A DNA stretch of 64,000 nt from positions 2,294,001 through 2,358,000 of the forward strand of contig NZ_CP094460.1 in assembly GCF_022809715.1 (NCBI RefSeq), written 5' to 3'. This stretch comes from Burkholderia pyrrocinia (GTDB lineage: Bacteria; Pseudomonadota; Gammaproteobacteria; Burkholderiales; Burkholderiaceae). A model generated the notes under the pieces. That model made no database searches. It was not told the origin of the DNA and saw nothing but the letters and a program-made list of their open reading frames with translations. The position numbers were made by a program, and so were the translations under genes. Numbering within the stretch: position 1 is the first letter of the stretch; each line of letters starts with the position of its first letter. Below are positions 13,260 through 34,161 of the stretch, in pieces.

Positions 13260-13334
13260 ACAGGGGAATACCCTGTCTTTTTTTTTCAATCTTGTTTTAT
13301 GTATCATGACCTAACTTTTGCAACATTTACTAAT
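13260..13334 (+). promoter_or_regulatory. Conserved promoter element, copy 1 (amine oxidase operon 1)
   Basis: ACAGGGGAATACCCTGT (13260-13276), a T-run, then TATCATGACCTAAC (13302-13315) and TTACTAAT (13327-13334). The GGGAATACCC core starts 44 bp before GACCTA, and CTA lies 22 bp after the start of GACCTA, as in the other three copies. It lies about 215 bp before the amine oxidase start, in the 440-bp gap with the divergent response regulator. I see no other gene in that gap. Confidence 0.75.
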
Positions 13335-13550
13335 TCAGGGGGCCGGCAAATCCTTATCGATACAAGGAAATACGGCACGCGTACAGGCAGGAATGCGAAC
13401 TGGATCGCACACCGGAATCGAGGTGGGCGGGCCGGCGGCAGGTGAAGCGGAACGAGGTCGCATCCAGTCGTCAGATCCCGCGCGAGCGATGGCCGCGTGC
13501 CGCCGAGGCGGCCGCCGCTCGCGCCATTTGCAGGCGGTAACCAACACATC

Positions 13551-15035
13551 ATGTCCAGGAAGTCATCCACCAGCGGGTCGGCCGACATGCGGCGCAGGCA
13601 GTGGCTCAAGGTCGCGGGCGCGTCCGTCGCGGCGGGCGGGCTTGCGCTCGGCACGGTGCGGGCGAAGGCCGATGCGGTGCCTGCCGCCGGCAACGACGGC
13701 GACGTGCTCGATGTCGCGATCGTCGGCGCCGGGCTTGCCGGCCTGACGGCCGCGCGCGATCTGCGCTACGCGGGCTGCGAATCCTTCGTCGTGCTCGAGG
13801 CGCGCGATCGCGTGGGCGGCCGCACGCTCAATTACGACGTGGGTGGAGGCTATGTGACGGAAGTCGGCGGCCAGTGGATCGGCCCGGGCCAGACGGCTGT
13901 TGCGGATCTCGCCCGCGAGCTGGAAGTCGGCACGTTCCCGAGTTATTACGCAGGCAAGACGGTCATTCTCGGCGGCGACGGGCGCGCCGAGATCGACCTG
14001 CAGGGCACGTTCGGCACCGACGAGGCCGTCGCGGCGAAGCTCAGCAGGCTGTCGCGCGACGTGCCGTCGGCCACGCCGTGGACGTCGCCGAAGGCCGGCG
14101 AACTCGACCGGCTGTCGGTCGGCGACTGGCTCGCGCAGCAGGGCATCAAACCCGAAGACCGGATGGGCTGGAACGCGTCGATCTCGCTGTCGGGCGGCGT
14201 CGCGCCGGCGAAGATGGGGCTGCTGCATTTCCTGTCGATGATCAATTCCGCCGATTGCGATTACGCGCAGCTCGACTCGATCAAGCACAGCGCGCAGGAA
14301 ACCCGTTTCGTCGGCGGCTCGCAGATCCTCAGCACCCGGATGGCGCAGCAACTGGGCGACAAGGTGCGCCTGTCGTCGCCGGTGCGCCGGATCGTCGGCT
14401 GGGATCGCGACGTCGTCACGTTGCAGACCGATCGCGGCACGGTGCGCGCGAAACAGGTCGTGATGGCGCTCCACCCGGCGCTGTGCCACCAGGTGCAGTT
14501 CGACCCGCCGCTGCCGGAAAAGCGCAGCGCGCTGCAGCGTGCGTGGCCGGCCCATTCGCCGGCGCGCAAGACGGCGATGGTCTACCGCCGCCCGTTCTGG
14601 CGCGACAAGGGCTTGAACGGCCACCTTTTCCAGACCGACGGGCCGATCTTCTGGGCTTATGACAATTCGCCGCCGGGCGGCGAAATCGGCGTGATCAACG
14701 CGTTCGTCCGGAATGCGCTGGTGCCGTCGGACCCGCAGGCCGCGAAACAGATGCACATGGATCTGTACGCGCAGGCATGGGGCGACGACGCGCGCGCGCC
14801 GGTGTCGTACCACGATCGCGACTGGGGGCTCGCCGACCCGTGGACGCTCACGTGCGTATCGGCAATCCCGCCCGGCTTCTGGAGCGCGCACGGCGAAGCG
14901 TTGCGCGCGCCGTGCGGCAACCTGATCTGGTCGGGCACCGAGACCGCGAACATCTGGGCCGGCTATATGGACGGCGCCGTTCGCTCCGGTCACCAAAGCG
15001 CGCTTCAGGCGCTCAACGCACTGCGTCGCGCATAG
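13551..15035 (+). CDS. Tat-exported flavin amine oxidase/dehydrogenase, paralogue 1
   Basis: A 494-residue FAD enzyme of the monoamine oxidase family. The twin-arginine signal is RRRQWLK at 14-20, followed by a hydrophobic stretch and an AKA cleavage region. The dinucleotide-binding motif is VGAGLAGLTAARD (~58-70), with EARDRVGGRT and GGQWIGPGQ after it. The Tat signal places it folded in the periplasm. The next gene encodes a diheme cytochrome c, so it probably passes electrons to the cytochrome rather than to oxygen, as shown for the related nicotine enzyme NicA2 with CycN. A closely similar copy lies at 25391-26869. Its substrate is an amine of unknown structure. Confidence 0.87.
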   Translation: MSRKSSTSGSADMRRRQWLKVAGASVAAGGLALGTVRAKADAVPAAGNDGDVLDVAIVGAGLAGLTAARDLRYAGCESFVVLEARDRVGGRTLNYDVGGGYVTEVGGQWIGPGQTAVADLARELEVGTFPSYYAGKTVILGGDGRAEIDLQGTFGTDEAVAAKLSRLSRDVPSATPWTSPKAGELDRLSVGDWLAQQGIKPEDRMGWNASISLSGGVAPAKMGLLHFLSMINSADCDYAQLDSIKHSAQETRFVGGSQILSTRMAQQLGDKVRLSSPVRRIVGWDRDVVTLQTDRGTVRAKQVVMALHPALCHQVQFDPPLPEKRSALQRAWPAHSPARKTAMVYRRPFWRDKGLNGHLFQTDGPIFWAYDNSPPGGEIGVINAFVRNALVPSDPQAAKQMHMDLYAQAWGDDARAPVSYHDRDWGLADPWTLTCVSAIPPGFWSAHGEALRAPCGNLIWSGTETANIWAGYMDGAVRSGHQSALQALNALRRA

Positions 15036-15045
15036 GAGAGCGGAG

Positions 15046-15705
15046 ATGAAGAAACGCATGCTGCTTCTCGCGGTGCTCGTGGTGGCGGGCGCGCTGCTGG
15101 CCCTCTACGGCCCTGCGCTGCTCGGCTTCTATCGCCTGCAGCACCATATCGATACGACGGCGCAAGCCGACGACGCCGACGGCGGCCCGTGGCCGCGCGT
15201 GACCGACGCGTGCATGGGCTGCCACGGCGTGAAGGGCACGTCGCTCAGCCAGGCATATCCGAGCCTCGCCGGCCAGCCGGCCCAATACGTCGCCGCGCAG
15301 CTGCGCGCGTTCGCGAGCGGGCAACGGGCGAACCCGACGATGGGCCCGCTCGCGATGACCATGAGCGAAGCGGAGATCGCCCATCTGGCCGGTTACTACG
15401 CGAAACAGGCGCCGGCGGACAACCGCTATTTCAAACCGGATGCACGACTGCGCGCGAAGGGCGAGCAACTGGTGACGGGCGGCGCGTGTGCGGCCTGCCA
15501 CGGCGCGCGGCTGACGGGGCAGGCGCAGTTTCCGCGTCTGGCCGGGCAGGGCTACGACTACCTGCTCGCGCAGCTCGACGCGTTCGCGAACGGCTCGCGC
15601 AGCGAGGCCACGGGCACGATGCAGCGCGTCGCGCAGGCGCTGTCGGCGGACGATCGCGCGGCGGTCGCGACCTATCTCGCGAGTGTCGGCCCCGGCAAAC
15701 AGTGA
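15046..15705 (+). CDS. Diheme cytochrome c, electron partner of amine oxidase 1
   Basis: A 219-residue cytochrome anchored or exported by an N-terminal hydrophobic helix (~4-28). The two heme c motifs are CMGCH (56-60) and CAACH (148-152), each followed by a cytochrome c4-type domain with PSLAGQ or PRLAGQ and a downstream methionine region (TMGPLAMTM). It starts 10 bases after the amine oxidase stop with GAGAGCGGAG upstream. It is the likely periplasmic electron acceptor, passing electrons on to a terminal oxidase. A paralogue lies at 26870-27550. Confidence 0.88.
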   Translation: MKKRMLLLAVLVVAGALLALYGPALLGFYRLQHHIDTTAQADDADGGPWPRVTDACMGCHGVKGTSLSQAYPSLAGQPAQYVAAQLRAFASGQRANPTMGPLAMTMSEAEIAHLAGYYAKQAPADNRYFKPDARLRAKGEQLVTGGACAACHGARLTGQAQFPRLAGQGYDYLLAQLDAFANGSRSEATGTMQRVAQALSADDRAAVATYLASVGPGKQ

Positions 15706-15740
15706 ATCATCGAAAGCAATCGACCTCGGGAGTTCTCACC

Positions 15741-16418
15741 ATGGATCACAGATCACTTGCTCTTTGTCTTGCCAGCGCGACGCTTGCGACGACGACTGGC
15801 GTGTACGGCTTCAAGTTCGTCCGCAAGCGCAACTTCCTGCTCGGCTTCGAATGGTGGATCGTCACGATCTCCGCGACCAATGCGCTGATCTTTTTCGCGA
15901 CGGAATCCCCGGTGTCGTACGCCATTTCGCACTTTCTCGATGCATTCTCGCGGGGGTTCGGGATGCCGGTCATCGCCGTCGCGGGCCTGATGACCGTCAC
16001 GCACGGCTACCGGCCGTCGGTGTGGCAGGACGTGCTGCTGTTCGTGCTCGCGACCGTCGGAACGATCGCGCTGGTAACGGCCGATTTCCTGAAAGGCCCG
16101 CTGCCGTATTTCTACGTGACGATGTGGACGTTGCTCGCGATCTATCTCGCCGGCTTCGTGATGCGGCTGCTGCGCGCCGGGCACGCGTTTCATGCGCTGA
16201 CGACGCTCGTCGCGCTCGCCGCGTCGCTGGCGATCGCGTGCATCTACGACTTCTACAAGATACCGGGCGACGAGACCAATGTCGTGTTCAACTTCTACGT
16301 ACTCGCGTTGCTCACGTGGTCGTACTTCACGGTCGTGATCTATTACGCGTATTGCGCGCTGGAGCCGGAGCAGGGGCGAAGCCGTGACGGTGCGGGCGTC
16401 TTGTCGTATCCGAAATGA
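15741..16418 (+). CDS. Polytopic membrane protein of unknown function
   Basis: A 225-residue protein with six or seven hydrophobic helices covering nearly its whole length, and aromatic-rich ends (YDFYKIPGDE, YFTVVIYYAYC). I do not recognise the family. It starts 35 bases after the cytochrome gene and appears to be the third gene of that operon. The second amine oxidase/cytochrome pair has no such partner. A role in quinone or cytochrome docking, or in substrate passage, would be speculation. Confidence 0.7.
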   Translation: MDHRSLALCLASATLATTTGVYGFKFVRKRNFLLGFEWWIVTISATNALIFFATESPVSYAISHFLDAFSRGFGMPVIAVAGLMTVTHGYRPSVWQDVLLFVLATVGTIALVTADFLKGPLPYFYVTMWTLLAIYLAGFVMRLLRAGHAFHALTTLVALAASLAIACIYDFYKIPGDETNVVFNFYVLALLTWSYFTVVIYYAYCALEPEQGRSRDGAGVLSYPK

Positions 16419-16689: not shown

Positions 16690-16762
16690 ACAGGGAATAC
16701 CCCGTCTATTTCTTTATTTTATTTTTGTCATGATGACCTAACATTGTCACCATGTTCTACTG
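16690..16762 (+). promoter_or_regulatory. Conserved promoter element, copy 2 (dioxygenase operon)
   Basis: ACAGGGAATACCCCGT (16690-16705), a T-rich spacer, TTGTCATGATGACCTAAC (16725-16742) and TTCTACT (16755-16761). GGGAATACCC to GACCTA is 42 bp, and GACCTA to CTA is 22 bp. The dioxygenase start lies about 60 bp beyond. The right arm carries one change (CCCCG), so it is a poorer hairpin but keeps the core. Confidence 0.75.
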
Positions 16763-16821: not shown

Positions 16822-17655
16822 ATGGATGCAGCCAAACGCAGGGCTTTCTTCGAGGATGGTGCGGTTCTCGTCGAAGGCGTGCTCAACGACGAACAACTGG
16901 CGCAATGCCGCGCGGTGTTCGACTGGGGGATGGAGAACCCGGGCCCGATGGCGACGACGCTGCTCGACGGCACCGAGTACAAGTCGCACAACGACAACGC
17001 GAACCCGTATGCGAAGGCACGGCTCGACGAACTCGTCGGCACGCTGCCGTTCGGGCAGTTGTTCGCCGACCTGTGGGGCTCGAAGCACGTGTGGTACTTC
17101 GCGGAGGAGCTGTTCATGAAGGGCGGCGGCAAGAGCGCGCGCTCGCCGTGGCACCAGGACACGTCGTACCTGCCATGGCAGGGGATGCACTTCGGCAACG
17201 CATGGATCAGCTTCGAGGCCGTGCCGAAGCGCAATGCGCTGGAGATCGTACGCGGTTCGCATCACGGCGTGCGCCACGACGGCACCACGTTCCAGAATGC
17301 CGACGACCCGACCGACCCGCTCCATGGCGGCGACGTGTGGCCGCGCCTGCCGAACATCGAAGCCGAACGCCGCGCGGCGCCGGGTGCGTACGACATCGTC
17401 TCGTGGGAAACGAAGCCGGGCGACGTGCTGCTGCTCCATCCGGGCGTGCTGCACGGCGGTGGCGCGGTCGATGCGGATTTCCCCGATCGCCACACGCTGG
17501 TGCTGCGCTTCTTCGGCGACGACGCGGTGTTCAGCCCGCTGCCCGATGACAGCCGCTCGGGCTTCACGCCCGCCGGCGTGCTGTTCGTCGAGGAACTCGC
17601 CGCGTTGAAGGCAGGCGATCCGTTCCGGGCACCATGTTTCCGTCAACTCGTCTGA
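16822..17655 (+). CDS. Phytanoyl-CoA dioxygenase (PhyH) family oxygenase
   Basis: A 277-residue Fe(II)/2-oxoglutarate oxygenase. The facial triad is H111 and D113 in WHQDTSY and H211 in HPGVLHGGG, with the 2-oxoglutarate-binding arginine probably R229 in TLVLRFFG. No signal peptide, so it is cytoplasmic. Family members hydroxylate carbon next to a carboxyl, a CoA thioester or an amine. It is the first gene behind promoter copy 2 and is followed closely by a RidA gene. It could hydroxylate the amine substrate or an acyl-CoA formed later in the pathway. Confidence 0.85.
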   Translation: MDAAKRRAFFEDGAVLVEGVLNDEQLAQCRAVFDWGMENPGPMATTLLDGTEYKSHNDNANPYAKARLDELVGTLPFGQLFADLWGSKHVWYFAEELFMKGGGKSARSPWHQDTSYLPWQGMHFGNAWISFEAVPKRNALEIVRGSHHGVRHDGTTFQNADDPTDPLHGGDVWPRLPNIEAERRAAPGAYDIVSWETKPGDVLLLHPGVLHGGGAVDADFPDRHTLVLRFFGDDAVFSPLPDDSRSGFTPAGVLFVEELAALKAGDPFRAPCFRQLV

Positions 17656-17672
17656 GCCAGGAGATTTTCATC

Positions 17673-18086
17673 ATGGCAGCTACCCCCAAGCGGCAATCGA
17701 TCGTTCCGCCCGCATTCCAGCCGTGGTACGACGCGTACCACTTCTCGCCGGCGACGCGTGTCGGCGACACGATCTGGGTCTCGGGTCAGGTCGGCCTCGA
17801 CGCGCAGATGCAGCCGGCGGACGGCGTGCAGGCGCAGGCGCGGATCGCGTTCGAGTGCCTGAAGATGATCCTCGAGGAGGCAGGCGCGAGCCTCGCCGAC
17901 GTCGTCGAATTGACGACATTTCATACGGATCTGCAGCGCGAGACCGAGGGCTTTGCGGCAGTCAAGGACGAGTATTTCCCGAACCGCTATCCGTCCTGGA
18001 CCGCGGTCGGCGTGACGCAACTGGCGCTGCCGGGCCTGTGCGTGGAGGTCCGCGCGGTAGCGGTGGCCGGTTCCGGCAAGGACTGA
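17673..18086 (+). CDS. RidA (YjgF/UK114) family enamine/imine deaminase
   Basis: A 137-residue protein with the RidA pattern: IWVSGQVGLD near the start, a central helix (ECLKMILEEAGASLADVVELT), and the conserved arginine in LCVEVRAVAV. RidA proteins hydrolyse reactive imines and enamines. Amine oxidases produce imines, so its presence 17 bases after the dioxygenase gene in an operon that also holds an amine oxidase is coherent. The ATG is preceded by CAGGAG. Confidence 0.88.
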   Translation: MAATPKRQSIVPPAFQPWYDAYHFSPATRVGDTIWVSGQVGLDAQMQPADGVQAQARIAFECLKMILEEAGASLADVVELTTFHTDLQRETEGFAAVKDEYFPNRYPSWTAVGVTQLALPGLCVEVRAVAVAGSGKD

Positions 18087-18315
18087 CGGGCGGCAGCGAC
18101 GAATTTCAGGACGGGTTCGCGTTCCATATGAATCGCAGTCCTGAAGGAAAGGCACGAGCGAATCGAAGAAGGCAATGCAATCGGCAGTCGGCCGGCCGGA
18201 CCCCCGGCCGGCCGCGATCAAGGAGCGACGCAATCGTCGGTCGACGATAGCGGTCGGAGTGAACGCGTTTCGCCCACGACGGGCGAACGAAGGCGGAGTG
18301 GGAAGGAGAACCGTG

Positions 18316-19680
18316 ATGAAGAAGCATAGTTTCTGGGCCGTGTCCGCGATCGCGGCCGCTGCATGTCTCGCGATCGGCACGGCCGTCGCGGCGGACGACC
18401 TGACACCGGCCGGCGCCGATCGAACGGCGAGCAAGGACGGCGCGGTGCCGGCCTATGCCGGTAAGCAATCGCCCGATGCGGGCTGGGAGTGGGGCAAGGT
18501 GCGCGCCGATTTCTGGAAGCACCGCAACGAGAAACCGCTCTACTCGATCGATGCCGCGAACGTCGACAAGTATGCGGACAAGCTGTCGCCCGGGCAGGTC
18601 GCGCTGATCAAGCAGAAGAAGGGCTACCGGATGGACGTCTACCCGTCCCATCGCGAATGTCAACTGCCGGACGTCGCCGAGCAGAACTCGAAGGCGAACC
18701 TCACTGCCGCGAAGCTGGATTCGACCGGCGAGAACCTCGCATCGGCCGCGTTGCCGGGCGTGCCGTTCCCGCAGCCGAAGAGCGGCGTGGAAGCGATCCT
18801 GAACTACGAGATGCGCTATCGCGGCGAAGGCGTCGAATGGGCGCAGGTCGCCACGGCCATTTCGCCGCGTCCGGGCGGCAGCGACTGGATCGACGCGGTC
18901 GGCCCGCAGACGTTCTACTTTCCGTCCGCCAAGCTCGGCAAGCGCTCGCCGCAGGATGTCGACCAGTTGAGCGCGGCCGTCTACTTCCAGATGAATTCGC
19001 CCGCCGCGCTCGCCGGGCAGGCCTTCGTCCAGCGGCAGTACTTCAACAAGGACTCGGAAACCTACTACTACTTCCCGGGCCAGCGGCGCGTGCGACGCAT
19101 GCCGGCCTATACGCACGACGCACCGTTGATCGGGTTCGAGAACCAGTACCTGATCGACGAGGCGAACATGTTCAACGGCTCGCTCGACCGGTTCAACTGG
19201 AAGCTGGTCGGCAAGAAGGAAATGATCGTCCCGTACAACGCGTTCGGCATGTACAAGTTTAAGAGCAAGCTGCACGACGTCGCGACACCCGACGGCCTCG
19301 CCGCTGCGAACCGCCGTTACGAGACGCATCGCGTGTGGGCGGTCGAGGCGACGCTGAAGCCGAGCGCGCGGCACGTCGCGTCGAAGAAGGTGTTCTATCT
19401 CGACGAAGACAGTTGGCTCGCGCTCGTCGGCGAGGACTACGACGCGCAGGGCAAGTTGTGGAAGGTGCGGGAAAGCTACCCGATTCCGGTATGGGAGCTC
19501 GGCGGCACCTGCGACAACGAACCGCTCGCGCAGTACGACATGATCAACGGCCGCTATGTGTTCGATGCGTCGTCGATCGGCCAGGGCAAGGACATTCGCT
19601 GGTTCGGTCAGGCCGACGATCCGCGCTTCAAGTCGGATTTCTACACGGCGGAATCGCTGCGCTCGGTCAGCGAACGGTGA
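18316..19680 (+). CDS. DUF1329 family exported protein
   Basis: A 454-residue protein with a Sec signal peptide (MKKHSFWAVSA... ending AVA at ~26). The DUF1329 family is all-beta and outer-membrane associated, with motifs such as YYYFPGQRRVRR and ETHRVWAVEATLK. It is regularly encoded beside a DUF1302 protein, an RND permease and a YCF48 protein in hydrocarbon, steroid and terpenoid catabolism loci, and exactly these follow here. Its biochemical function is unknown. A GGAAGGAGAA leader precedes the ATG; the 229 bp before it hold nothing I can name. Confidence 0.85.
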   Translation: MKKHSFWAVSAIAAAACLAIGTAVAADDLTPAGADRTASKDGAVPAYAGKQSPDAGWEWGKVRADFWKHRNEKPLYSIDAANVDKYADKLSPGQVALIKQKKGYRMDVYPSHRECQLPDVAEQNSKANLTAAKLDSTGENLASAALPGVPFPQPKSGVEAILNYEMRYRGEGVEWAQVATAISPRPGGSDWIDAVGPQTFYFPSAKLGKRSPQDVDQLSAAVYFQMNSPAALAGQAFVQRQYFNKDSETYYYFPGQRRVRRMPAYTHDAPLIGFENQYLIDEANMFNGSLDRFNWKLVGKKEMIVPYNAFGMYKFKSKLHDVATPDGLAAANRRYETHRVWAVEATLKPSARHVASKKVFYLDEDSWLALVGEDYDAQGKLWKVRESYPIPVWELGGTCDNEPLAQYDMINGRYVFDASSIGQGKDIRWFGQADDPRFKSDFYTAESLRSVSER

Positions 19681-19758
19681 CGGTCACCGGCTGACGGATA
19701 CAAGGACCGGCGCGCGCAACGATCGTGCGCCGGCATCGAACAGGGGCGGAGGTGGATC

Positions 19759-21603
19759 ATGGAATCGGCAAGATTAGTAAGGAATGCTACGGTATCGATT
19801 GCAATGGCGGGGGCTGCGACGTCGAGCGCCTATGCGTACGATTTCACGATGGGAGGCGGGGCACTGCAGGGCTCGTTGGTGTCGAACCTGACGGCCGGCG
19901 CCGGTATTCGCACCAAAAACCCGAGTTGCTCGCTCACCGGCGACCCGAACGCCTTCGGCTGCGGCGCGGGCGCGAACACCAACCAGTGGGGCTACGCGGA
20001 CAACGGTGACCTGAACTACCGCAAGGGCCAGCCGTTCAGCACCTACATCAGCGCGACCAGCGAGCTGCTGCTGAAGATGCCGAGCGAAGGGCTGAAGTTC
20101 ATGGTGCGCGGCACGGGCATGTACGACTTCATGGCCAAGAACACGAACCGCACGCCGTTGTCGAGCACCGCGGCCGCGCAGGTGGTGTACAACGCGCAAC
20201 TGCTCGACCTGTGGGCGCAGAAGGATTTCACGATCGGCGGGCGCAACGCGCACGTGCGGCTCGGCAACCAGGTGATCAACTGGGGCGAGAGCATGTTCGC
20301 GCAGAGCGGCATCAACGCAACCAACTCGATCGACGTGCAGAAGCTGCTGATTCCGGGCTCGCAGCTCAAGCAGGCGCTGCTGCCGGCGCCGATGGCGAGC
20401 TTCGCTGCCGACCTGTCGCACGGGTTCAGCACCGAGGCGTATTACCAGTTCCAGTGGAACGGCAATCGCTACCCGCCGGTCGGTTCGTACTGGTCGGTGA
20501 CGAACGGCTTCGGCCGCGGTGCCGAGCCGTTCACGATCAACACGAACAACCTGAACGTGACCGGCCCGAGCGCGGGCACGATCGCCAACGCGATCGGCGG
20601 GCCGGGCGCCGCCGGCAACCAGGACACGCTCAACGCGATCAAGAACGGGCTCGTGAACGGCACGTACGCAGGGCCGCCGTTCAACGACATCGGCCTGCCG
20701 AGCACGACGAACCTGCCGGCGAAATACCGGCCGCAGTTCGGCGTGAAGTTCAACTACTCGCCGCGCTCGTTCGACGCGAATTTCGCGTTCTACTACCTGA
20801 ACTACACGGACAAGTCGCCGGTGCTCGCGTCGCTCGCGAACGGGACCGTGCAATGGTCATATCTCGGCCGGCGGCAACTGTTCGGCGTCAGCGCGAACTT
20901 CGGGCTCGGCCCGTGGGCGATCGGCACCGAGCTGTCGTACCGGCCGCGCGACGCGGTCGCGCTGTCGAGCTGCTACGGCGCAGGCGGCCCGCTCGACCTG
21001 AACACGAACGGCGTGGCGGGCATCAACTGCCAGCAATGGGCCGACAAGAAGAAATTCCAGTACGACATCAACGGGTTGCTTGCGCTGACGCGCAGCGAAT
21101 ACCCGTTCCTGAAGCTGCTCGGCGCCGATTCGGCCGCGCTGACCTGGGAACTGACGTGGATCTACTACCCGGGCCTGAAATCCAGCGGCGTCACGCGCAC
21201 GATCGACGGCCAGACCGTCACGCAGGTACCTCAGGCCGGCTACCTGCCGTGGCTGAACAACGGGTCGGCGGCCGGCTATCCGATCGGGATGGGCCAGGGC
21301 ACCTCGAGCTCGGTGGGCGCGACGATCGACTTCAACTGGACCTACGACGGCTCGCTGATCCCCGGCTGGCAGGTCACGCCTGGCGTGACGTTCAGCACCG
21401 GCCTGTACGGCTACACGCCGACCTTCACCGCGAATTACATGCAGGGCGCGAAGTCGGTGAACGTCTACGTGCTGTTCAACCAGAACCCGCCGAACTGGCA
21501 GGCCGGCATCAACTTCACTTCGTTCTGGGGCGGCCACAACACGGTGGGCCAGCCTTACGCGGACCGCAATTTCGTCGGCTTGTTCGTCACGCGGAATTTC
21601 TGA
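19759..21603 (+). CDS. DUF1302 family outer membrane protein
   Basis: A 614-residue protein with a signal peptide ending SSAYA (~26). It is rich in alternating beta-strand and aromatic patterns and ends in a terminal phenylalanine (VGLFVTRNF), the usual signature of a barrel inserted by the BAM complex. DUF1302 proteins are predicted outer membrane channels for hydrophobic substrates. The gene is second in the DUF1329-DUF1302-RND-YCF48 set. It probably forms the outer membrane entry or exit route; the direction of transport is not settled by sequence. Confidence 0.86.
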   Translation: MESARLVRNATVSIAMAGAATSSAYAYDFTMGGGALQGSLVSNLTAGAGIRTKNPSCSLTGDPNAFGCGAGANTNQWGYADNGDLNYRKGQPFSTYISATSELLLKMPSEGLKFMVRGTGMYDFMAKNTNRTPLSSTAAAQVVYNAQLLDLWAQKDFTIGGRNAHVRLGNQVINWGESMFAQSGINATNSIDVQKLLIPGSQLKQALLPAPMASFAADLSHGFSTEAYYQFQWNGNRYPPVGSYWSVTNGFGRGAEPFTINTNNLNVTGPSAGTIANAIGGPGAAGNQDTLNAIKNGLVNGTYAGPPFNDIGLPSTTNLPAKYRPQFGVKFNYSPRSFDANFAFYYLNYTDKSPVLASLANGTVQWSYLGRRQLFGVSANFGLGPWAIGTELSYRPRDAVALSSCYGAGGPLDLNTNGVAGINCQQWADKKKFQYDINGLLALTRSEYPFLKLLGADSAALTWELTWIYYPGLKSSGVTRTIDGQTVTQVPQAGYLPWLNNGSAAGYPIGMGQGTSSSVGATIDFNWTYDGSLIPGWQVTPGVTFSTGLYGYTPTFTANYMQGAKSVNVYVLFNQNPPNWQAGINFTSFWGGHNTVGQPYADRNFVGLFVTRNF

Positions 21604-21671
21604 CGGCGGCGGGTGGCAAGCGGCAGGTGGCAGGTGGCGTACGCCACCGGAATACATGAAGGGGTAACGTC

Positions 21672-24032: not shown

Positions 24033-24063
24033 AGTAGACGCACGTCCCGACGGAGATCCAGTC

Positions 24064-24348: not shown

Positions 24349-24379
24349 TGCCAGCGCATACCACTACGGAGGTTCTTCC

Positions 24380-25348: not shown

Positions 25349-25390
25349 GTTGAATCCACTAAAAAGGCCTGGAAGGATGGAGCACTCAAG

Positions 25391-26869: not shown

Positions 26870-27550
26870 ATGAAACGAACACTGACGATCGGCGCCGCGC
26901 TTGCGGTAGCCGGTGTGGTGGCGGCAGGCGTGCTGTTCGGGCCCGACCTCGTCGACGGCATGCGTTACCAGAAGGCGATGGCCGCGATCGGCGGCGCGGA
27001 CAAAACCAATGGCGGCGCGTGGCCGCAGCCGCAGGAGACGTGCTTCTTCTGCCACGGCGTGCACGGCCAGTCGCAGAACGCGTGGTATCCGTCGCTGTCC
27101 GGGCAGCCGGCCACGTATCTCGCCGCACAACTGCGAGCGTTCGCGAGCGACCGGCGCGGCAACGCGTATATGGGGCCGCTCGCGCGCGAACTCGACGACG
27201 CGAAGATCGACGCGCTGGCGACCTATTTCGCACGGCAGGCGTCGGCGCGTAACGAGACGGTGCCGGCCGACGCCGCGCTCGACAAGCGCGGGATGGCGCT
27301 GGTGGAGGCCAGAAGCTGCCGGGCATGCCACGGCGCGGCGCTGACGGGCAGGGACCAGGCACCGCGTCTCGCGGGCCAGGGGCAGCTTTACCTGGAGGCG
27401 CAGCTCGCGGCGTTCCGATCGGGCCAGCGCCACGATCCGGGCGGCGTGATGAATGGCGTCGCCGCGACACTGTCGGGCGACGACACGCGCGCAGTTGCGC
27501 ACTATCTGGCCGGCCTGTCGCCGGGCAGTGCCGACGGTGCGGCCCGATGA
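26870..27550 (+). CDS. Diheme cytochrome c, electron partner of amine oxidase 2
   Basis: A 226-residue cytochrome with an N-terminal membrane or signal helix and heme c sites CFFCH (58-62) and CRACH (150-154). It shares the c4-type layout of its paralogue at 15046-15705 (LSGQPATYLAAQLRAFAS, MGPLAREL). The ATG directly follows the amine oxidase stop, which implies translational coupling and a functional pair. It is the likely electron acceptor for the Tat-exported enzyme. Promoter copy 3 follows at once. Confidence 0.88.
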   Translation: MKRTLTIGAALAVAGVVAAGVLFGPDLVDGMRYQKAMAAIGGADKTNGGAWPQPQETCFFCHGVHGQSQNAWYPSLSGQPATYLAAQLRAFASDRRGNAYMGPLARELDDAKIDALATYFARQASARNETVPADAALDKRGMALVEARSCRACHGAALTGRDQAPRLAGQGQLYLEAQLAAFRSGQRHDPGGVMNGVAATLSGDDTRAVAHYLAGLSPGSADGAAR

Positions 27551-27566: not shown

Positions 27567-27642
27567 GGACCGGGAATACCCTGCCTTTTTCTTTGCCGTT
27601 TACTTTGTCATAGTGACCTAAGATTGGTAATGTGTTCTATAA
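27567..27642 (+). promoter_or_regulatory. Conserved promoter element, copy 3 (CoA-ligase operon)
   Basis: CGGGAATACCCTG (27571-27583), a T-rich spacer, TTTGTCATAGTGACCTAAG (27604-27622) and TTCTATAA (27635-27642). GGGAATACCC to GACCTA is 43 bp, and GACCTA to CTA is 22 bp. It starts within 20 bases of the cytochrome stop, so the dyad plus T-run could also weakly terminate the upstream transcript. Confidence 0.75.
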
Positions 27643-27726: not shown

Positions 27727-28860
27727 ATGGCTAAGCACCCCGTCGTCGTTTATGGCGCAAGCGGTTACACCGGCATGTTGATCATGGACTGGCTGATCGA
27801 CCAGAACATCCCGTTCACCGCGGTCGCGCGCAACGCGGGCCGCACGAAGGAAATGATGGCGCAGCGCGTCGTGCGCCTCGAATCGGCGAACTTCGAGATC
27901 ATCGAAGCGGATCACAGCGTCGATTCGCTCGTCAACGCATTCCGTGGCGCAAAGGTCGTATGCAACACGGTCGGACCGTTCTTCAATTTCGGTTTGGTGT
28001 CTGTCGAAGCAGCGCTCAAGGCGGGTTGTCATTACCTCGACACCACGGGCGAACAGCACTATATCCGCCAGGTCCGCGAACAGTTCGGCGAACTGTATCG
28101 GCAGGCAGGGCTGCTGCTGTCCCCTTCGGTTGCGTACATGTACTCGTTCGCGGAAATTGCCGCGGAGCTGGCACTCGAGACGCCGGGCATCGATGCGCTG
28201 GAAACCGCAACGCTTACGCGCGGCCCGCGGGGCGCAGGCGCCGGCGTAAGTGTCGGTTCGACGGCAACCATCTTCGAAGGGTATCGACAGGAAGCCTGCT
28301 ATCTGTGGGAAAAGCAGCTGGTGCCGCACGAACAGCACGCTTCGTTCAGCATCGTCTCCCCGGATTTCATTCAGCCGGTGTTCTCGCTGCCGTGGGGCGG
28401 CACGTCCCTGCCGGTGTACTTCGAGCATGACGCGCGTGTGCGCAGCTGTATCTCGTCCGTCGGTTTCTACGATAACAACGCGATGCAGATGGTGCATGCG
28501 CTCGGCCAGAAATGGGATGCGGAGTACAAGCACTTGCCGCGCGAACAGCAGGACGCAGTGCTGAAGCAGATCGTGGATTCGACGACGCCGTCGATGCCAC
28601 CGCGCGAGCGTACGTCGCTTCATCGCACGGTCGACTTCGCGATCGGTCGTGGCCACCTTAACGCAGTCCGCGCGACGTTGCATGGCATCACGCCGTACAT
28701 CGCAACCGGTGCATTGCATGCAGCGGGCGCCATCAAGCTCCTGGACGGCGATACCGCGAAGGTCGGCTTCGCATCGGGTTCGAAGGCGTTCGGCCATCGC
28801 TACCTGCTCGGCTTCCTCGAGCAGCGCGGGCTCGCGCGCGCCACGGTCACGCAACTGTGA
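27727..28860 (+). CDS. Saccharopine dehydrogenase-like NAD(P)-binding protein
   Basis: A 377-residue oxidoreductase-like protein. The N-terminal Rossmann motif VVVYGASGYTGML and the CHYLDTTGE segment are typical of the saccharopine dehydrogenase/trans-acting enoyl reductase family. The family is broad, so the reaction is open: in this setting it could act on an amino-acid-like adduct or on an acyl intermediate. Its codon use is somewhat less biased than in the flanking genes. It is the first gene behind promoter copy 3. The chosen ATG has AGGAG upstream; the longer frame lacks such a site. Confidence 0.75.
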   Translation: MAKHPVVVYGASGYTGMLIMDWLIDQNIPFTAVARNAGRTKEMMAQRVVRLESANFEIIEADHSVDSLVNAFRGAKVVCNTVGPFFNFGLVSVEAALKAGCHYLDTTGEQHYIRQVREQFGELYRQAGLLLSPSVAYMYSFAEIAAELALETPGIDALETATLTRGPRGAGAGVSVGSTATIFEGYRQEACYLWEKQLVPHEQHASFSIVSPDFIQPVFSLPWGGTSLPVYFEHDARVRSCISSVGFYDNNAMQMVHALGQKWDAEYKHLPREQQDAVLKQIVDSTTPSMPPRERTSLHRTVDFAIGRGHLNAVRATLHGITPYIATGALHAAGAIKLLDGDTAKVGFASGSKAFGHRYLLGFLEQRGLARATVTQL

Positions 28861-28902
28861 CGGCCGCCGCATTACCGGTACAGACTCAACGGAACCTGTG
28901 AA

Positions 28903-30456
28903 ATGGCCATTATCGATTTCTACGACCGCGGGTGGCGCATCAATCCCGACGGCATTGCCTATATCCAGGGCGACCGCAGCTATACGTTCCAGGAGATCGG
29001 CGAGCTGTCGTGCCGCATCGCCAACGGACTTCTTGCCGCCGGCTTCGCGAAGGAGACGAAGGCGGCTGTGTGGGCGGACAACGACGTGATCGGCTGGAGC
29101 TGCGCGCTCGGGATGTGGCGGGCCGGGCTCGCGTACATTCCGGTGAACGGGCGCAATGCGCCTGCGGAGAACCAGTACGTGCTCGATGCGTTCGACTGCG
29201 AAGTGCTGTTCTTCCACCAGGCGTTCGCGTCCGCGATCGACGCGCTGCGGCCGAGCCTGCCGAAGATCCGGCTGTGGGTGTGCCTCGACGCCGACCTGTC
29301 GTGGGCGCCGTCGCTGGCCACTTGGAGCGGGCGCCAGCCGGCGACGCTGCCGGCCGTCGAATACGCGATGGACGACGTCGTCGCGTTGTCGGCCACCGGT
29401 GGCACAACCGGTGCGCCGAAGGGCGTGATGAACACGCACCGCTCGCTGCAGACGTATTTCGCGCAATTCATGATTGCGATGACGTACGGCGCCGAGCTGC
29501 CGGTGAATCTCGCCGCGGCGCCGATGACGCACACGGCGGGCATGTTGTCGCTGCCATGCACCGCGCGTGGCGGCACGGTGGTCGTGCTGCCGAAGCCCGA
29601 CCCCGCGCTGCTGCTCGGCGCGATCGTGAAGCACCGCGTGACCGAGTTCTTCCTGCCGCCGACCGTCATCTACCGGCTGCTCGACATCCCGGGCATCGAC
29701 AACGTCGATTTTTCGTCGTTGCGCTACTTCCTGTATGGCGCGGCGCCGATGTCGGTCGAGAAGCTCAAGCGCGCGATCGATGTATTCGGGCCGGTGATGA
29801 CGGGCGGCTACGGGCAGACCGAAGCCCCCGCGTCGATCTCGTACCTGACGCCGGCCGAGCACTTCGTCGACGGCCGGCTCGCACCGGACGAGCGGCTGTC
29901 GTCGGTTGGCCGCCCGAATCCGCTGGTGCGCGTCGAGATCGTCGACGATCGCGGCGACGTGCTGAAGCAGGGCGAGACCGGCGAGATCTGCGTGCGCGGC
30001 GATCTCGTGATGAAGGGGTACTACAACGCGCGGGACAAGACGGCCGAGACGATCGTCGACGGCTGGCTGCACACCGGCGACATCGGTCATCTCGATACGG
30101 AAGGCTATCTGCACATCACCGACCGCAAGAAGGACATGATCATCAGCGGCGGCTTCAACGTCTATCCGAGCGAGGTCGAGCAGGTGATCTGGGCACATCC
30201 GGCGGTGCAGGACTGCGCGGTGATCGGCGTGCCCGACGACAAGTGGGGCGAGGCCGTGAAGGCCGTCGTCGAACTCAATGCCGGCCAGCACGTGAGCGCG
30301 GACGAGCTCGTCGCGCTGTGCAAGGAGAAACTCGGCTCGGTGAAGGCGCCGAAGAGCGTGGACTTCGTCGTCGCGCTGCCGCGCAGCACGGCCGGCAAGG
30401 TGCTGAAGAAGGACCTGCGCGAACAGTACTGGCAGGGCCAGCAGCGCAGGATATGA
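28903..30456 (+). CDS. Acyl-CoA synthetase (AMP-forming)
   Basis: A 517-residue member of the ANL adenylating superfamily. The phosphate-binding loop TGGTTGAPKG is at ~167, followed by GGYGQTEA, DGWLHTGDIGH with the hinge DRKKDMIISGG, and the C-terminal catalytic lysine region GKVLKKDLR. It activates a carboxylic acid to its CoA ester. In this operon it would prime the acid left after deamination and oxidation of the amine. The chain length is unknown. Confidence 0.9.
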   Translation: MAIIDFYDRGWRINPDGIAYIQGDRSYTFQEIGELSCRIANGLLAAGFAKETKAAVWADNDVIGWSCALGMWRAGLAYIPVNGRNAPAENQYVLDAFDCEVLFFHQAFASAIDALRPSLPKIRLWVCLDADLSWAPSLATWSGRQPATLPAVEYAMDDVVALSATGGTTGAPKGVMNTHRSLQTYFAQFMIAMTYGAELPVNLAAAPMTHTAGMLSLPCTARGGTVVVLPKPDPALLLGAIVKHRVTEFFLPPTVIYRLLDIPGIDNVDFSSLRYFLYGAAPMSVEKLKRAIDVFGPVMTGGYGQTEAPASISYLTPAEHFVDGRLAPDERLSSVGRPNPLVRVEIVDDRGDVLKQGETGEICVRGDLVMKGYYNARDKTAETIVDGWLHTGDIGHLDTEGYLHITDRKKDMIISGGFNVYPSEVEQVIWAHPAVQDCAVIGVPDDKWGEAVKAVVELNAGQHVSADELVALCKEKLGSVKAPKSVDFVVALPRSTAGKVLKKDLREQYWQGQQRRI

Positions 30457-30481
30457 GCCCATTTAATATGGATTCCAGACG

Positions 30482-31723
30482 ATGAGCAACATCTACATCG
30501 CCGGCATTTCGATGACCGTGTTCGGCCGGCACCTCGACCGTAGCCTCGACGACCTGGCGCGCGAGGCGCTGCAGCGTGCGTTGCGCGACGCGGGCTGCCA
30601 TGCCGATGCGATTCGCGCTGCGTTCTACGCCGGCATCACCAACGGCCCGCTGCAGGGGCAGTTGTCGATTCCTGGTCAGGTCGTGTTCAGCAAGATCGGC
30701 CTCGAAGGCATTCCGGTGTTCAACGTCGAGAATGCATGCGCGTCCGGCAGTACGGCCGTGCACCTGGCCGTGCGACAGCTTCAGTCGGGCGCGTGCGACG
30801 TCGCGCTCGCGCTCGGCGCGGAAAAGATGAACGTCGCGGACAAGGCGAAATCCTTCGCGCTGTTCGAGGCGGGCTGGGACGTGTCGCGCATCGACGAAAA
30901 CTTCGCGATGCTCGCGCAGCTCGGCGAAGGGATCGAGTCGCCGCCCGGCTCCGAATCCGACCGCCCGTATAGCCGCTTCATGAAGATCTACGCGGCGCTG
31001 TGCCGGCATCACATGCGCACGTACGGCACGACGCAGCGGCAGATCGCCGCCGTGTCATCGAAGAACCACGGGCATTCGGTGCACAACCCGTATTCGCAGT
31101 TCCGCCAGCCGTTCACGATCGACGAGGTGCTCGCGGCGGCGCCGATCACGTACCCGATCACGCTGCCGATGTGCGCACCGCTGTCGGACGGCGCGGCGGC
31201 CGCGATCCTCTGCACCGACGAAGGGCTGGAGCGCATCGGCGCCGATCGCAGCCGCTGCATCCGGATCGCCGCGAGCGTGCTGCGCAGCTTCACGCGTCGG
31301 CGCATCGACGAGCCGCACAAGCACATCGGCCGGCTTGCCGCGCTGCAGGCCTACGAGCAGGCCGGCGTGGGGCCGGAGGACATGGACGTCGCCGAAGTGC
31401 ACGACGCGTCTGCGATGGGCGAAATCATCCAGGCCGAGAACCTCGGCTTCGTGCCGTTCGGCGAAGGCGGCCCGGCTGCCGAGCGGGGCGAATTCACGCT
31501 CGGCGGGCGGATCCCGATCAACACGTCGGGCGGCCTCGAATCGAAGGGCCATCCGCTCGGCGCGACCGGCATCGGGCAGCTGTACGAGCTGGTCACGCAG
31601 TTGCGCGGCGAGGCGGGCGGGCGCCAGGTGCAGGGCGCGCGCCATGCGATCCAGGAAAACGGCGGCGGATTGCAGGGCGTCGAGGAAGCAGCGCTGGCGA
31701 TTCACATTCTCAGCAGGGACTGA
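30482..31723 (+). CDS. Thiolase family protein (SCP-x/lipid-transfer type)
   Basis: A 413-residue thiolase-fold enzyme. The nucleophile is C86 in ENACASGS; EVHDASAMGE and SGGLESKGHPLGATG carry the conserved His regions. It resembles the sterol carrier protein-x branch, which cleaves branched 3-ketoacyl-CoA or acts in retro-Claisen/aldol steps. No partner OB-fold (DUF35) gene is seen beside it. It lies 26 bases after the CoA ligase and probably cleaves the activated chain. Confidence 0.85.
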   Translation: MSNIYIAGISMTVFGRHLDRSLDDLAREALQRALRDAGCHADAIRAAFYAGITNGPLQGQLSIPGQVVFSKIGLEGIPVFNVENACASGSTAVHLAVRQLQSGACDVALALGAEKMNVADKAKSFALFEAGWDVSRIDENFAMLAQLGEGIESPPGSESDRPYSRFMKIYAALCRHHMRTYGTTQRQIAAVSSKNHGHSVHNPYSQFRQPFTIDEVLAAAPITYPITLPMCAPLSDGAAAAILCTDEGLERIGADRSRCIRIAASVLRSFTRRRIDEPHKHIGRLAALQAYEQAGVGPEDMDVAEVHDASAMGEIIQAENLGFVPFGEGGPAAERGEFTLGGRIPINTSGGLESKGHPLGATGIGQLYELVTQLRGEAGGRQVQGARHAIQENGGGLQGVEEAALAIHILSRD

Positions 31724-31734
31724 CGGAGGCGGAC

Positions 31735-33210
31735 ATGAGCGACGCACATGGCGCGATGGCGCTCGGGCGGGCAGGGCAGGCGGCGCGGCGCGCGCCGGAC
31801 GGCGTCGGCGCGGCGGCGTCGATGCAGGCAGTGGGCGCGGACGCGGCCGGGCCGCTGGCGCGCTGGGGCGAGGAAATCCGGGCCGACGCCGCGTTGCAGA
31901 AGTATCGTCCCGTCGGCGGATGGATCGAGGCGCCGGATGATGCGCAGCCGCAGCTCGAAGGCGACGTCCGCGCGGACGTGATCGTCGTCGGCGCCGGTTT
32001 TGCCGGCCTGTCCACCGCACTGGAACTGGCCGCGCGCGGCGCGAGCGTCGTCGTGCTCGAACGCGAGTTCGCGGGCTTCGGCGCGAGCGGGCGCAACGCC
32101 GGTTATCTCGCCGGTGGCCAGGGGCTCGAATACGAGCTGTTTCTCAAGCGCGTCGGGCGCGAACAGGCAAAGCAGATCGTCGGCTTTTACGACGAAGGCG
32201 TGGCCTACGTCGAGCGCAAGCTCACCGAATATGCGATCGACTGCGACTACCGTGCGTCGGGCATCATCCGCGCGGGCGTGCATCCGTCGCAGGAGAAGCG
32301 TTTGCGCGAGAGCATGGAAACCGGCATCGAACTCGGCTCGCCCGCGCAGTTTCTCGACGGCGCGGCGATGCGCGCGCGCGGGATTCCGCCGGCCTTCCTG
32401 TTCGGCGCGTATGTGCCGGGCGGCGGCACGCTCGATCCCGGCAAGTACGTGACGGGGTTGCGGCGCGCCGCGCTCGCGGCCGGCGTGAAGCTCTACGAGA
32501 ACACCGCGCTGCTCGATTTCGACGAAGGCGAGACGGTGCGCGTGCGCACGGCACGCGGCAGCGCGAGTGCGCCGGTGCTGGTGCTCGCCACCAACGCCTA
32601 CACGCCGCAGCTCGGCCTGCTCGGCGACAAGGTGATGCCGTTGCGCGTGTCGGCGCTCGAAACCGAGCCGCTGTCCGATGCGCAACTCGCGGCGCTCGGC
32701 TGGCCGCGTCGCGAGGGCATCGTCACGTCGCACCTGACGATGGAGAGCCATCGCCTCACCGCCCGCAACACGCTGCTGCTGACGACCAAGCGGCTGCATT
32801 ACGTCTACGGTTCGCAGACGCCGAACGTGCCGGACGACGACGCGTATCGCGCGCTCGTGAAGGCGCTGCACGCGCGCTTTCCGCAACTGGGCAACGTGCC
32901 GGTGCGCGCGTGCTGGAGCGGCTATATCTCGTTCGCCGGCGACGCGTTGCCGGTGGTCGGCGCGGCCGGCAAGCACGGGAACGTGTTTTATACGGCCGGA
33001 TGCTCGGGGCATGGCGTGGGCACGCAGTCGCTGATCGGGCGCGTGCTGGCCGAGCGGATCCAGGGCGAGCAATCGCCGCTGCTCGAGGCGCTGACGCACA
33101 AGACGCCATCGGTGCCGCCGGAGCCGCTGCGATGGTGCGCGATGAATGCGATGCTCGGCGTCGCGAACCTGCTCGACGAGCGCGTGAACCGCAAGGCGCG
33201 GAAGATGTAG
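31735..33210 (+). CDS. FAD-dependent oxidoreductase (DAO family, PuuB-like)
   Basis: A 491-residue flavoprotein. A low-complexity Ala/Gly-rich N-terminus of ~75 residues precedes the FAD motif VVGAGFAGLSTALELAARG, followed by GFGASGRNAGYL, the pattern of D-amino-acid-oxidase-like enzymes such as gamma-glutamylputrescine oxidase and sarcosine oxidase. CWSGYISFAGDALPVVG near the end closes the FAD site. Unlike the two MAO-type enzymes it has no Tat signal, so a cytoplasmic secondary amine or a glutamylated amine is a likely substrate. It starts 11 bases after the thiolase gene. Confidence 0.85.
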   Translation: MSDAHGAMALGRAGQAARRAPDGVGAAASMQAVGADAAGPLARWGEEIRADAALQKYRPVGGWIEAPDDAQPQLEGDVRADVIVVGAGFAGLSTALELAARGASVVVLEREFAGFGASGRNAGYLAGGQGLEYELFLKRVGREQAKQIVGFYDEGVAYVERKLTEYAIDCDYRASGIIRAGVHPSQEKRLRESMETGIELGSPAQFLDGAAMRARGIPPAFLFGAYVPGGGTLDPGKYVTGLRRAALAAGVKLYENTALLDFDEGETVRVRTARGSASAPVLVLATNAYTPQLGLLGDKVMPLRVSALETEPLSDAQLAALGWPRREGIVTSHLTMESHRLTARNTLLLTTKRLHYVYGSQTPNVPDDDAYRALVKALHARFPQLGNVPVRACWSGYISFAGDALPVVGAAGKHGNVFYTAGCSGHGVGTQSLIGRVLAERIQGEQSPLLEALTHKTPSVPPEPLRWCAMNAMLGVANLLDERVNRKARKM

Positions 33211-33314
33211 CGGCGCAAGCGATCGTCACGACGCTGAAACGTGCATCCGGCCGGACTGCCCCGCCGACGGGCGGCTCGATGGAAAATGAGGCTCGCATCG
33301 GGTATAGTCGTTGG

Positions 33315-33335
33315 CGCTCCGTAAGGTACGGAGCG
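33315..33335. promoter_or_regulatory. Inverted repeat before the TetR gene, probable operator
   Basis: A perfect 9-bp inverted repeat, CGCTCCGTA-agg-TACGGAGCG, 43 bases upstream of the TetR start. Size and position fit an autoregulatory TetR-type operator. It does not resemble the four promoter elements. Confidence 0.5.
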
Positions 33336-33377
33336 TCAATTCGACGAAGCCGAAACGCCACCTTCACGACGAACACG

Positions 33378-34055
33378 ATGACAGTGCCCAACGAGCAGCG
33401 CAGCGGCAAAAAGCGGCGCACTTCGACTGCCACCACCGCAGCGGCAAGCAACCCGGACGGTTTGCGGGCGCAAGGCCTGCGCACCCGCAACACGATTATT
33501 CGTGTCGCGCGGAAGCTGCTGCTGGAAGGCGGCCCGCTGGAATTCTCGCAGCGCGCGGTTGCCGCGGCGGCAGGCATCAGCGTCAGTAATCTGCAGTACT
33601 ACTTCCCGACCCGGATCGCCGTATTGCGGGCCGTCATCGAGCCGGTCATCGATACGTACCTGGACGACATGAAGCGCGCGCTCAGCAGCGACGCGTCGCC
33701 GCGCGACGTGTTCGAGGAGATCGTGGAGCGCTCGATCCGAGATGCGAAGGATGCCAAGTACAACGCACTGTTCCGGCACTTCCTGTCGTTCGCGGCGACC
33801 GATCCCGAGTGCTTCAAGCTTTACGACGAATGGTATGCGACGCTGACGCGTGATCTCGCGCAACTGCTGCGCACCGTCAATCCCGCATTCAGCGCGGCCG
33901 ACAGCCGGCATGCGGCGACGATGCTCATCGCGCTGGCGGACGGCCTCGCGATGCAGTACGGCACCGGGCGGCACACGCAGGCGCTCGACGCGTATTTCGC
34001 GGCGACGTCTCGCGCGCTCGCCTATGGCACGTTAGCGGTGCCCGCCGGCAAATAG
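33378..34055 (+). CDS. TetR family transcriptional regulator of the amine regulon (candidate)
   Basis: A 225-residue regulator. After a basic, Ala-rich tail of ~35 residues the helix-turn-helix reads EFSQRAVAAAAGISVSNLQYYF (given here only as position ~60-80), preceded by RNTIIRVARKLLLEGG. The helical C-terminal domain would bind the ligand. It lies between promoter copies 3 and 4 and is the only one-component regulator inside the cluster, so control of the four promoters is plausible, though its own promoter has a different dyad. The ATG was chosen because it keeps the whole DNA-binding domain without including the upstream inverted repeat. Confidence 0.82.
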   Translation: MTVPNEQRSGKKRRTSTATTAAASNPDGLRAQGLRTRNTIIRVARKLLLEGGPLEFSQRAVAAAAGISVSNLQYYFPTRIAVLRAVIEPVIDTYLDDMKRALSSDASPRDVFEEIVERSIRDAKDAKYNALFRHFLSFAATDPECFKLYDEWYATLTRDLAQLLRTVNPAFSAADSRHAATMLIALADGLAMQYGTGRHTQALDAYFAATSRALAYGTLAVPAGK

Positions 34056-34088
34056 CGGCCGGACCTCACAGCCGCCACGCAGGAGCAG

Positions 34089-34161
34089 ACAGGGGAATAC
34101 CCTGTCTTTTTTTTGCTCCCTGTCTTTGTCATGATGACCTATGTTTGGTATGTATTACTAG
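34089..34161 (+). promoter_or_regulatory. Conserved promoter element, copy 4 (acyl-CoA dehydrogenase)
   Basis: ACAGGGGAATACCCTGT (34089-34105), a T-run, TTTGTCATGATGACCTA (34125-34141) and TTACTAG (34155-34161). GGGAATACCC to GACCTA is 43 bp, and GACCTA to CTA is 22 bp. It is identical to copy 1 over the 17-base dyad. It lies 33 bases after the TetR stop, so it could also act as a terminator for that gene. Confidence 0.75.

Follow-up and report, generated by a model that had tools for sequence, protein, structure and literature searches.

What does a short composite element do that recurs four times at the heads of operons in one gene cluster of Burkholderia pyrrocinia, and which protein acts on it? 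The element lies in the window analysed here, a stretch of 64,000 nucleotides (nt), and consists of a 10-mer dyad, GGGAATACCC, a T-run and, further downstream, a core that contains GACCTA and CTA. A preliminary description had read the dyad as an activator site and the core as its promoter. The element is unique to the cluster within the genome and is conserved in related bacteria, the core has the geometry of a direct repeat, the dyad and the core are separable, and the core is linked to a gene of the TetR family. The comparisons favour, though not strongly, a local regulon in which this TetR protein would repress four promoters through tandem units, with a terminator-like module lying upstream.

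Position, uniqueness and conservation of the element

GACCTA starts at 13308, 16735, 27615 and 34136 in copies 1 to 4, which is 44, 42, 43 and 43 bp past the starts of GGGAATACCC (13264, 16693, 27572 and 34093). The CTA starts exactly 22 bp after the start of GACCTA in every copy, and TTGTCAT precedes the core in three of the four, all as the preliminary description had reported. In the whole genome (7.69 Mb, three contigs), the pattern GGGAATACCCN{28,38}GACCTA has four matches, all on the plus strand and all in this one cluster, against about 0.03 expected from base composition and none in the reversed control. When up to two mismatches are allowed, the dyad with its T-run and the core each return only the same four places, with two and no matches in their respective controls. 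When up to three mismatches to its form in copies 2 and 4 are tolerated, unit 1 of the core (defined below) on its own has 13 matches, against 16 in the reversed control. The 13 comprise three of the four cluster sites, at zero or one mismatch, and ten others at three mismatches; unit 1 of copy 1 is too far from those of copies 2 and 4 to be matched within three. The element does not occur at random positions, and the regulon is that of a single cluster, with no unlinked members detected in this genome. Since there are only four sites, all in one cluster, a dedicated cluster regulator is expected.

Exact elements were found in 26 of 101 genomes, namely in 26 of the 61 from the same genus (this one included) and in none of the other 40. 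Four copies are present in 17 of the 26, three in one, two in one and a single copy in seven. This count covers exact matches only, and it missed copy 2 of one relative (G058; genomes and loci are numbered G and L here), which has GGGAATACCT. Diverged elements occur in seven more named genera, Cupriavidus, Pandoraea, Paraburkholderia, Caballeronia, Trinickia, Massilia and Pseudoduganella, which makes eight genera of the Burkholderiales with Burkholderia. The sites stand at orthologous operon heads, their spacers have diverged and their geometry has been conserved. This rules out a mobile repeat, as had been argued at the outset, and supports a cis-regulatory element of fixed geometry that serves one cluster. 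No Rfam family matches within the window, and a plasmid search with copy 2 as the query gave no match.

The core as two tandem units

The conserved columns of 61 distinct seed elements form two like-shaped blocks, at -11 to 5 and 8 to 24 counted from the G of GACCTA. Shifted by 19, these 17-bp blocks (units 1 and 2) agree with each other at 11, 12, 10 and 10 of 17 positions in copies 1 to 4. The four-copy mean of 10.75 compares with 6.75 at the next best shift and was reached by none of 20,000 permutations; apart from the CTA, which the preliminary description had supplied, this test is not circular. Averaged over 59 non-redundant cores drawn from all loci, the agreement is 9.98 of 17 at the shift of 19 and 6.46 at the next best shift, the former being partly circular because the cores were chosen by a matrix that includes unit 2. 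Iterated units are directly visible in L075 (two) and L087 (three). GACCTA and the CTA 22 bp on look like the ends of two direct 17-bp units with a period of 19 bp, an arrangement that resembles a tandem operator. The earlier reading of the core as plain promoter hexamers was incomplete in this respect.

In the model that we favour, all elements would belong to one pathway-specific regulon, each as a composite promoter region whose core would hold two operator units in direct repeat, with the half-site TGACCTA. If transcription starts ~35 nt past the G of GACCTA, the units would span about -46 to -30 and -27 to -11, and a TA-rich -10 would begin at the conserved TA. TetR dimers would bind the units and block RNA polymerase at the four promoters, including the one upstream of their own gene, until a pathway metabolite releases them. 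The dyad with its T-run would be a separate intrinsic terminator or insulator. The T-run, being AT-rich, may double as an upstream promoter element, and such a role would account for the fixed distance between dyad and core.

The positions after the CTA are biased to A/T in the 61 seed elements. Downstream of copy 4, the mRNA leader of the acyl-CoA dehydrogenase gene has a hairpin at 34171-34195 that is kept across genera. In 22 sequences 83.1% of its cells are paired, compared with 15-49% in slid versions and 78.9% in shuffles, two of 500 of which reach the observed level. Two-sided changes occur in four of seven pairs, a figure equalled by 88 of 500 shuffles, so that the covariation is weak. 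This hairpin, if real, puts the transcription start between itself and the CTA.

The TetR-family protein as candidate regulator

The TetR protein encoded from 33384 scores 30.4 bits for PF00440 (cut-off 24) and 42.2 bits for PF13977 (cut-off 27). In 31 of 38 loci the TetR gene comes immediately before the gene for the acyl-CoA dehydrogenase; a recognisable core precedes the dehydrogenase gene in 29 of these 31 (the exceptions are L080 and L082) and in none of the other seven. Of 37 genomes of the same genus, 19 have both TetR (counted as present at E <= 1e-30) and the element, and the other 18 have neither. For 19 TetR proteins picked from 45 others aligned, identity to the window protein is 86% in the helix-turn-helix, 96% in SVSNLQYYF, which was taken as the third helix, and 49% in the ligand-domain part. 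Copy 3 stands upstream of a gene row that ends in TetR and is probably co-transcribed with it. Elsewhere, MP-TetR of L083 has a core of 40.1 bits in front of it, and TetR of L077 has a weak one of 28.8 bits. The core upstream of the saccharopine dehydrogenase-like gene has decayed in L063, from a genome without a TetR ortholog, and has been retained in the related L064, from a genome with two.

TetR is most likely the protein that acts on the units. Its ties to them are linkage, co-occurrence, the conserved helix-turn-helix and the half-site of the double-TetR clusters described below, all of them correlations. Of the two regulators first put forward, this one gains from linkage and co-occurrence, and the two-component pair comes out weaker.

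The hairpin module upstream of the core

RNA folding separates the four dyads into two kinds. Copies 1 and 4 form strong hairpins relative to shuffles, and their GC-rich stem and U-run give a terminator-like score; copies 2 and 3 fold no better than shuffles and have no such score, and had already been described as poor hairpins that keep the core. The hairpin of copy 4 begins 31 bp past the TetR stop codon. Among the 59 elements, a hairpin with a T-rich tail is present in 57 by loose criteria and reaches <= -6 kcal/mol in 43. The distance from the hairpin centre to GACCTA is 36.5-39.5 nt in 51 of the 59. A stronger test is passed by 53 of 63 sequences (the 59 elements and four TetR-terminators). 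The loop is gaata in 22 of the 53 and aata in 14, and sixteen other kinds occur once or twice each; four of the 53 are chance folds in elements without a dyad (L069 at 13327, L073 at 13327, L081 and L083).

Across genera, the loop is 3-7 nt long and the arms show G-U and compensatory changes, such as A-T replaced by G-C in L045 and L046 and a closing pair that is C-G instead of G-C in L077 and L087. The arms were compared by counting outward from the loop, and a MAFFT alignment of the dyad, which was out of register, was not used. Between copies the left arm is offset by 1 bp relative to GGGAATACCC. In the rearranged clusters L042-L045, TetR is followed by a hairpin whose loop reads catgc, catgt or ccgt, and the stretch shown is devoid of a core; the persistence of the hairpin behind TetR without a core supports a terminator. 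Cores without a dyad occur in L064, L069, L077 and L081, and no such dyad lies upstream of the dehydrogenase gene in L063, L064, L084 and L089. The dyad is a module separate from the core and behaves like a terminator hairpin across genera, as judged by its variation.

The 10-mer itself is exact in all five PhyH elements shown from rearranged clusters, where the arms are just 3-4 bp long. The same holds for all nine copy-3 elements in an alignment that drew on ten Burkholderia loci fetched by the dehydrogenase protein (L055 was not located; L063, L064, L084 and L089 were left out). Since GGGAATACCC stays exact despite short or poor arms, a second, sequence-specific role as a protein site is possible.

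Points against a TetR repressor, and alternative explanations

Several observations weigh against this model. The unit is nearly palindromic, as TTTGTCAT-N-ATGACCTA, in Burkholderia copies 2-4 only; the mean self-complementarity of the 59 cores is only 0.45, and the promoter position is one that we infer. Direct repeats are uncommon as sites of TetR proteins. The plus strand of the four copies holds no sigma-70-like pair of TTGACA and TATAAT at a spacing of 16-18 nt, and the one sigma-70-like match, against 0.2 expected, is on the minus strand at copy 2. The association of TetR with the core upstream of the dehydrogenase gene is confounded, because the promoter is lost once the genes join one operon. 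Linkage and co-occurrence are likewise confounded, the cluster, TetR and the promoter being gained and lost together. A core of the 19-bp kind is present in L081 and, more weakly, in L076, both from genomes without a TetR ortholog at E 1e-25, which speaks against a strict pairing of TetR and core; L080 and L082 have TetR, but TAGGTC iterons and not the core lie upstream of their dehydrogenase gene. The terminator view leaves the exact GGGAATACCC of the poor hairpins in copies 2 and 3 unaccounted for. It also fails to account for copy 1, which has no plus-strand gene upstream; with the independent conservation of the core, this rules out a terminator alone. The statement that copy 1 is without a plus-strand gene was nevertheless wrong, as the amine oxidase operon from 13551 follows it.

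An unlinked activator, for example of the AraC/XylS type, could bind the tandem units, with TetR playing another role, though we regard this as unlikely. The half-sites of AraC/XylS proteins are ~17 bp long and in direct repeat, and the asymmetric, directly repeated unit resembles their two-box layout; the cores of L076 and L081 would also fit. The period here is 19, however, and 21 at AraC sites. No sites beyond control level lie outside the cluster in this genome, which is odd for an unlinked regulator, and no AraC gene is found among the 17 neighbouring open reading frames (ORFs) scanned, which are part of the unmatched ones. Unit 2 would moreover overlap the predicted -10, a position that suits a repressor.

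More doubtful still is the proposal of a dimeric activator that binds the GGGAATACCC dyad, some four helical turns ahead of a promoter made of GACCTA...CTA. Two observations agree with it, the narrow range of distances between hairpin centre and GACCTA, and the exact 10-mer in the PhyH elements with short arms and in copies 2 and 3. Against it, the 1-bp shift of the left arm and the variable loop length fit RNA better than a rigid DNA dimer, and loop and stem vary across genera with compensation. The hairpin is also found behind TetR without a core, and four cores have no dyad. Of the original proposal the cis element stands; the dyad as an activator site is not favoured, given its terminator-like variation and its lone occurrence behind TetR.

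Binding by the response regulator encoded at 12373-13110, a member of the linked two-component pair, is very improbable. The regulator gene and copy 1 are divergently oriented, and several relatives in Burkholderia have related pairs within or close to the cluster (in G058, at the far end of the stretch, L049). But the pair is less consistently linked than TetR, with no match in the 40 kb fetched from G056 (L036, L037) or in the 32 loci L058-L089 (21 kb each), where cores are present, no genome-wide search having been made in either case.

Double-TetR clusters and TAGGTC iterons

Five genomes with a related cluster, all without an ortholog of the single TetR (G101, G103, G104, G105 and G107), have two TetR domains in one frame. 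These frames (L111-L115) encode 481, 479, 487, 542 and 479 amino acids with two TetR_N stretches each. Every frame either overlaps the related locus that was fetched or is no more than 7.5 kb from the end of that locus. Each domain is 23-30% identical to the window TetR. The N-terminal third helix is NLQYYF in all five, as in the window TetR, and one other, diverged helix reads ALRNYF, ALKNYF, ALQNYF or ALQHYF. In five of six loci (L111, L112, L114, L115 and L116, not L113; the L116 frame is counted here without a Pfam scan), the ~300 bp ahead of the double-TetR frame contain TAGGTC iterons with a period of 22 bp, which show the same half-site as TGACCTA when read on the opposite strand. They are often followed by a box that ends in ACG or GCG. 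The iterons are not confined to double-TetR clusters, as they also occur in L075, L076, L080, L082, L084 and L089, with a single TetR in L075, L080 and L082.

At up to one mismatch, G102 and G106 have four matches each to the core pattern, G108 has three, G107 and G109 have two each and G104 has one, and there are none in G101, G103 and G105; reversed controls give 0-6 per genome, so that low counts mean little. TetR-type helices are tied to TGACCTA by correlation only. We tentatively suggest that the TetR lineage and its operators may have switched architecture between related clusters, one form being a homodimer on tandem quasi-palindromic 17-bp units with a 19-bp period and the other a single-chain double TetR on asymmetric TAGGTC iterons with a 22-bp period. 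If true, the switch would be a natural record of a dimeric repressor becoming a covalent pseudo-heterodimer while its operator changed alongside. Comparing single-TetR with double-TetR systems is a way to follow joint change of repressor and operator.

The gene cluster behind the four copies

The features of the window and the double-TetR frames are collected in Table 1. The ORF at 13497-15035 matches PF01593 and has a strong codon-position bias (GC 0.68/0.53/0.88), with an ATG at 13551. A GTG-started ORF at 15683 was rejected as misframed, the real ORF being 15741-16418. The gap before TetR measures 173 bp, and TetR probably belongs to the copy 3 operon. Among solved structures, the second amine oxidase best matches monoamine, putrescine and cyclohexylamine oxidases. 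Since it is nearest to monoamine and putrescine oxidases, a likeness to limonene dehydrogenase CtmAB (PMC4109377) is not favoured. The cluster may also be similar to the antifungal afc cluster. The cluster is putatively catabolic, and a lipophilic amine as its substrate is a guess.

In relatives, the stretch that separates the membrane-protein ORF from copy 2 includes a second TetR gene (L051:1114-1737). About 570 bp of that stretch are missing at 16420-16690 of the window, where no long match remains. This second TetR is not needed as the regulator, as it is deleted here and all four elements remain. The saccharopine dehydrogenase-like protein (27727-28860) is 82-84% identical to its orthologs in G001, G056, G058, L065 and L086, whose other cluster proteins are mostly at ~90% identity or higher; its identity reaches 93% with one protein from Burkholderia and 89% with one from Paraburkholderia. 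Gene exchange is possible for this gene, judging from these identities. In other Burkholderia (L042-L047) the clusters are rearranged and the second amine oxidase is relocated, and TetR is seen in L042-L045.

Table 1. Elements, predicted operons and regulator genes; positions are those of the window unless a locus is named.
Feature	Position	Strand	Sequence or family	Remark
Copy 1 hairpin	13259..13286	+	GACAGGG-GAATA-CCCTGTC + T-run	terminator-like; dyad 13264-13273; z -4.58
Copy 1 unit 1 (putative operator)	13297..13313	+	TTATGTATCATGACCTA	
Copy 1 unit 2 (putative operator)	13316..13332	+	TTTTGCAACATTTACTA	end overlaps predicted -10
Copy 1 operon	13551..16418	+	amine oxidase, cytochrome c, membrane-protein-like ORF	predicted from order and spacing
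Amine oxidase, copy 1 operon	13551-15035	+	PF01593	
Cytochrome c, copy 1 operon	15046-15705	+		
Membrane-protein-like ORF, copy 1 operon	15741-16418	+		
Copy 2 dyad	16693..16702	+	GGGAATACCC	poor hairpin; z -0.46
Copy 2 unit 1 (putative operator)	16724..16740	+	TTTGTCATGATGACCTA	
Copy 2 unit 2 (putative operator)	16743..16759	+	ATTGTCACCATGTTCTA	
Copy 2 operon	16822..27550	+	PhyH, RidA-like, DUF1329, DUF1302, MMPL, YCF48/BNR, amine oxidase, cytochrome c	predicted
Copy 3 dyad	27572..27581	+	GGGAATACCC	poor hairpin; z -0.16
Copy 3 unit 1 (putative operator)	27604..27620	+	TTTGTCATAGTGACCTA	
Copy 3 unit 2 (putative operator)	27623..27639	+	ATTGGTAATGTGTTCTA	
Copy 3 operon	27727..34055	+	DUF5938/saccharopine dehydrogenase-like, AMP-ligase, thiolase, DAO oxidoreductase, TetR	
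TetR-family regulator	33384..34055	+		candidate binder of units
Copy 4 hairpin	34087..34114	+	AGACAGGG-GAATA-CCCTGTCT + T-run	dyad 34093-34102; z -2.93
Copy 4 unit 1 (putative operator)	34125..34141	+	TTTGTCATGATGACCTA	
Copy 4 unit 2 (putative operator)	34144..34160	+	TTTGGTATGTATTACTA	
Acyl-CoA dehydrogenase	34227..35516	+		copy 4 target
Double-TetR frame	L111:1483-2928			
Double-TetR frame	L112:700-2139			
Double-TetR frame	L113:1486-2949			
Double-TetR frame	L114:1306-2934			
Double-TetR frame	L115:1435-2874			

Comparison with known systems

In the literature searched, GGGAATACCC was not found with Burkholderia, nor was the four-term combination of the cluster; one further match dealt with another cluster, and the matches listed for tandem TetR proteins were unrelated work only. 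The control described here is most likely of the TetR type, local and repressive, conserved and fairly ordinary in kind. What the analysis adds is a conserved, cluster-specific control element named in eight genera of the Burkholderiales, a candidate regulator for it, and the distinction of a terminator-like hairpin from a tandem operator that together resemble one motif.

The closest likeness is to E. coli RutR, also of the TetR family and among the solved structures matched by the window TetR (E 3.7e-05). Both have NLxYYF in the third helix. The RutR operator reportedly reads TTGACCAnnTGGTCAA, which would place TGACC in the half-sites of both systems. Like RutR-type pathway repressors, the window TetR is linked to its cluster and probably autoregulated. 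It matches the RutR family models far below their cut-offs, however. Each promoter here appears to carry two 17-bp direct-repeat units with a period of 19 that are palindromic in some copies only, in contrast to the ~16-bp palindrome given for RutR in PMC10891134.

A second parallel is the compact intergenic region in which a promoter follows an intrinsic terminator, and copies 1 and 4 resemble it in being terminator-like. Copies 2 and 3 differ in this respect, and throughout the spacing to the core is near-fixed and, within the genus, the 10-mer seldom departs from its exact form.

The third parallel concerns the genes. The AmeABCD monoterpene export cassette of Castellaniella defragrans consists of DUF1302, DUF1329, YCF48/COG4447-like and MMPL/RND proteins, according to the main text of PMC6394551, in which the words regulator and promoter are absent. 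All four families, as given there, are present in the copy 2 operon. Here they stand together with MAO-like amine oxidases, cytochromes c, PhyH and RidA-like proteins behind a putative tandem-unit promoter, so that the cluster combines two amine oxidase/cytochrome c pairs with an AmeABCD-like envelope cassette.

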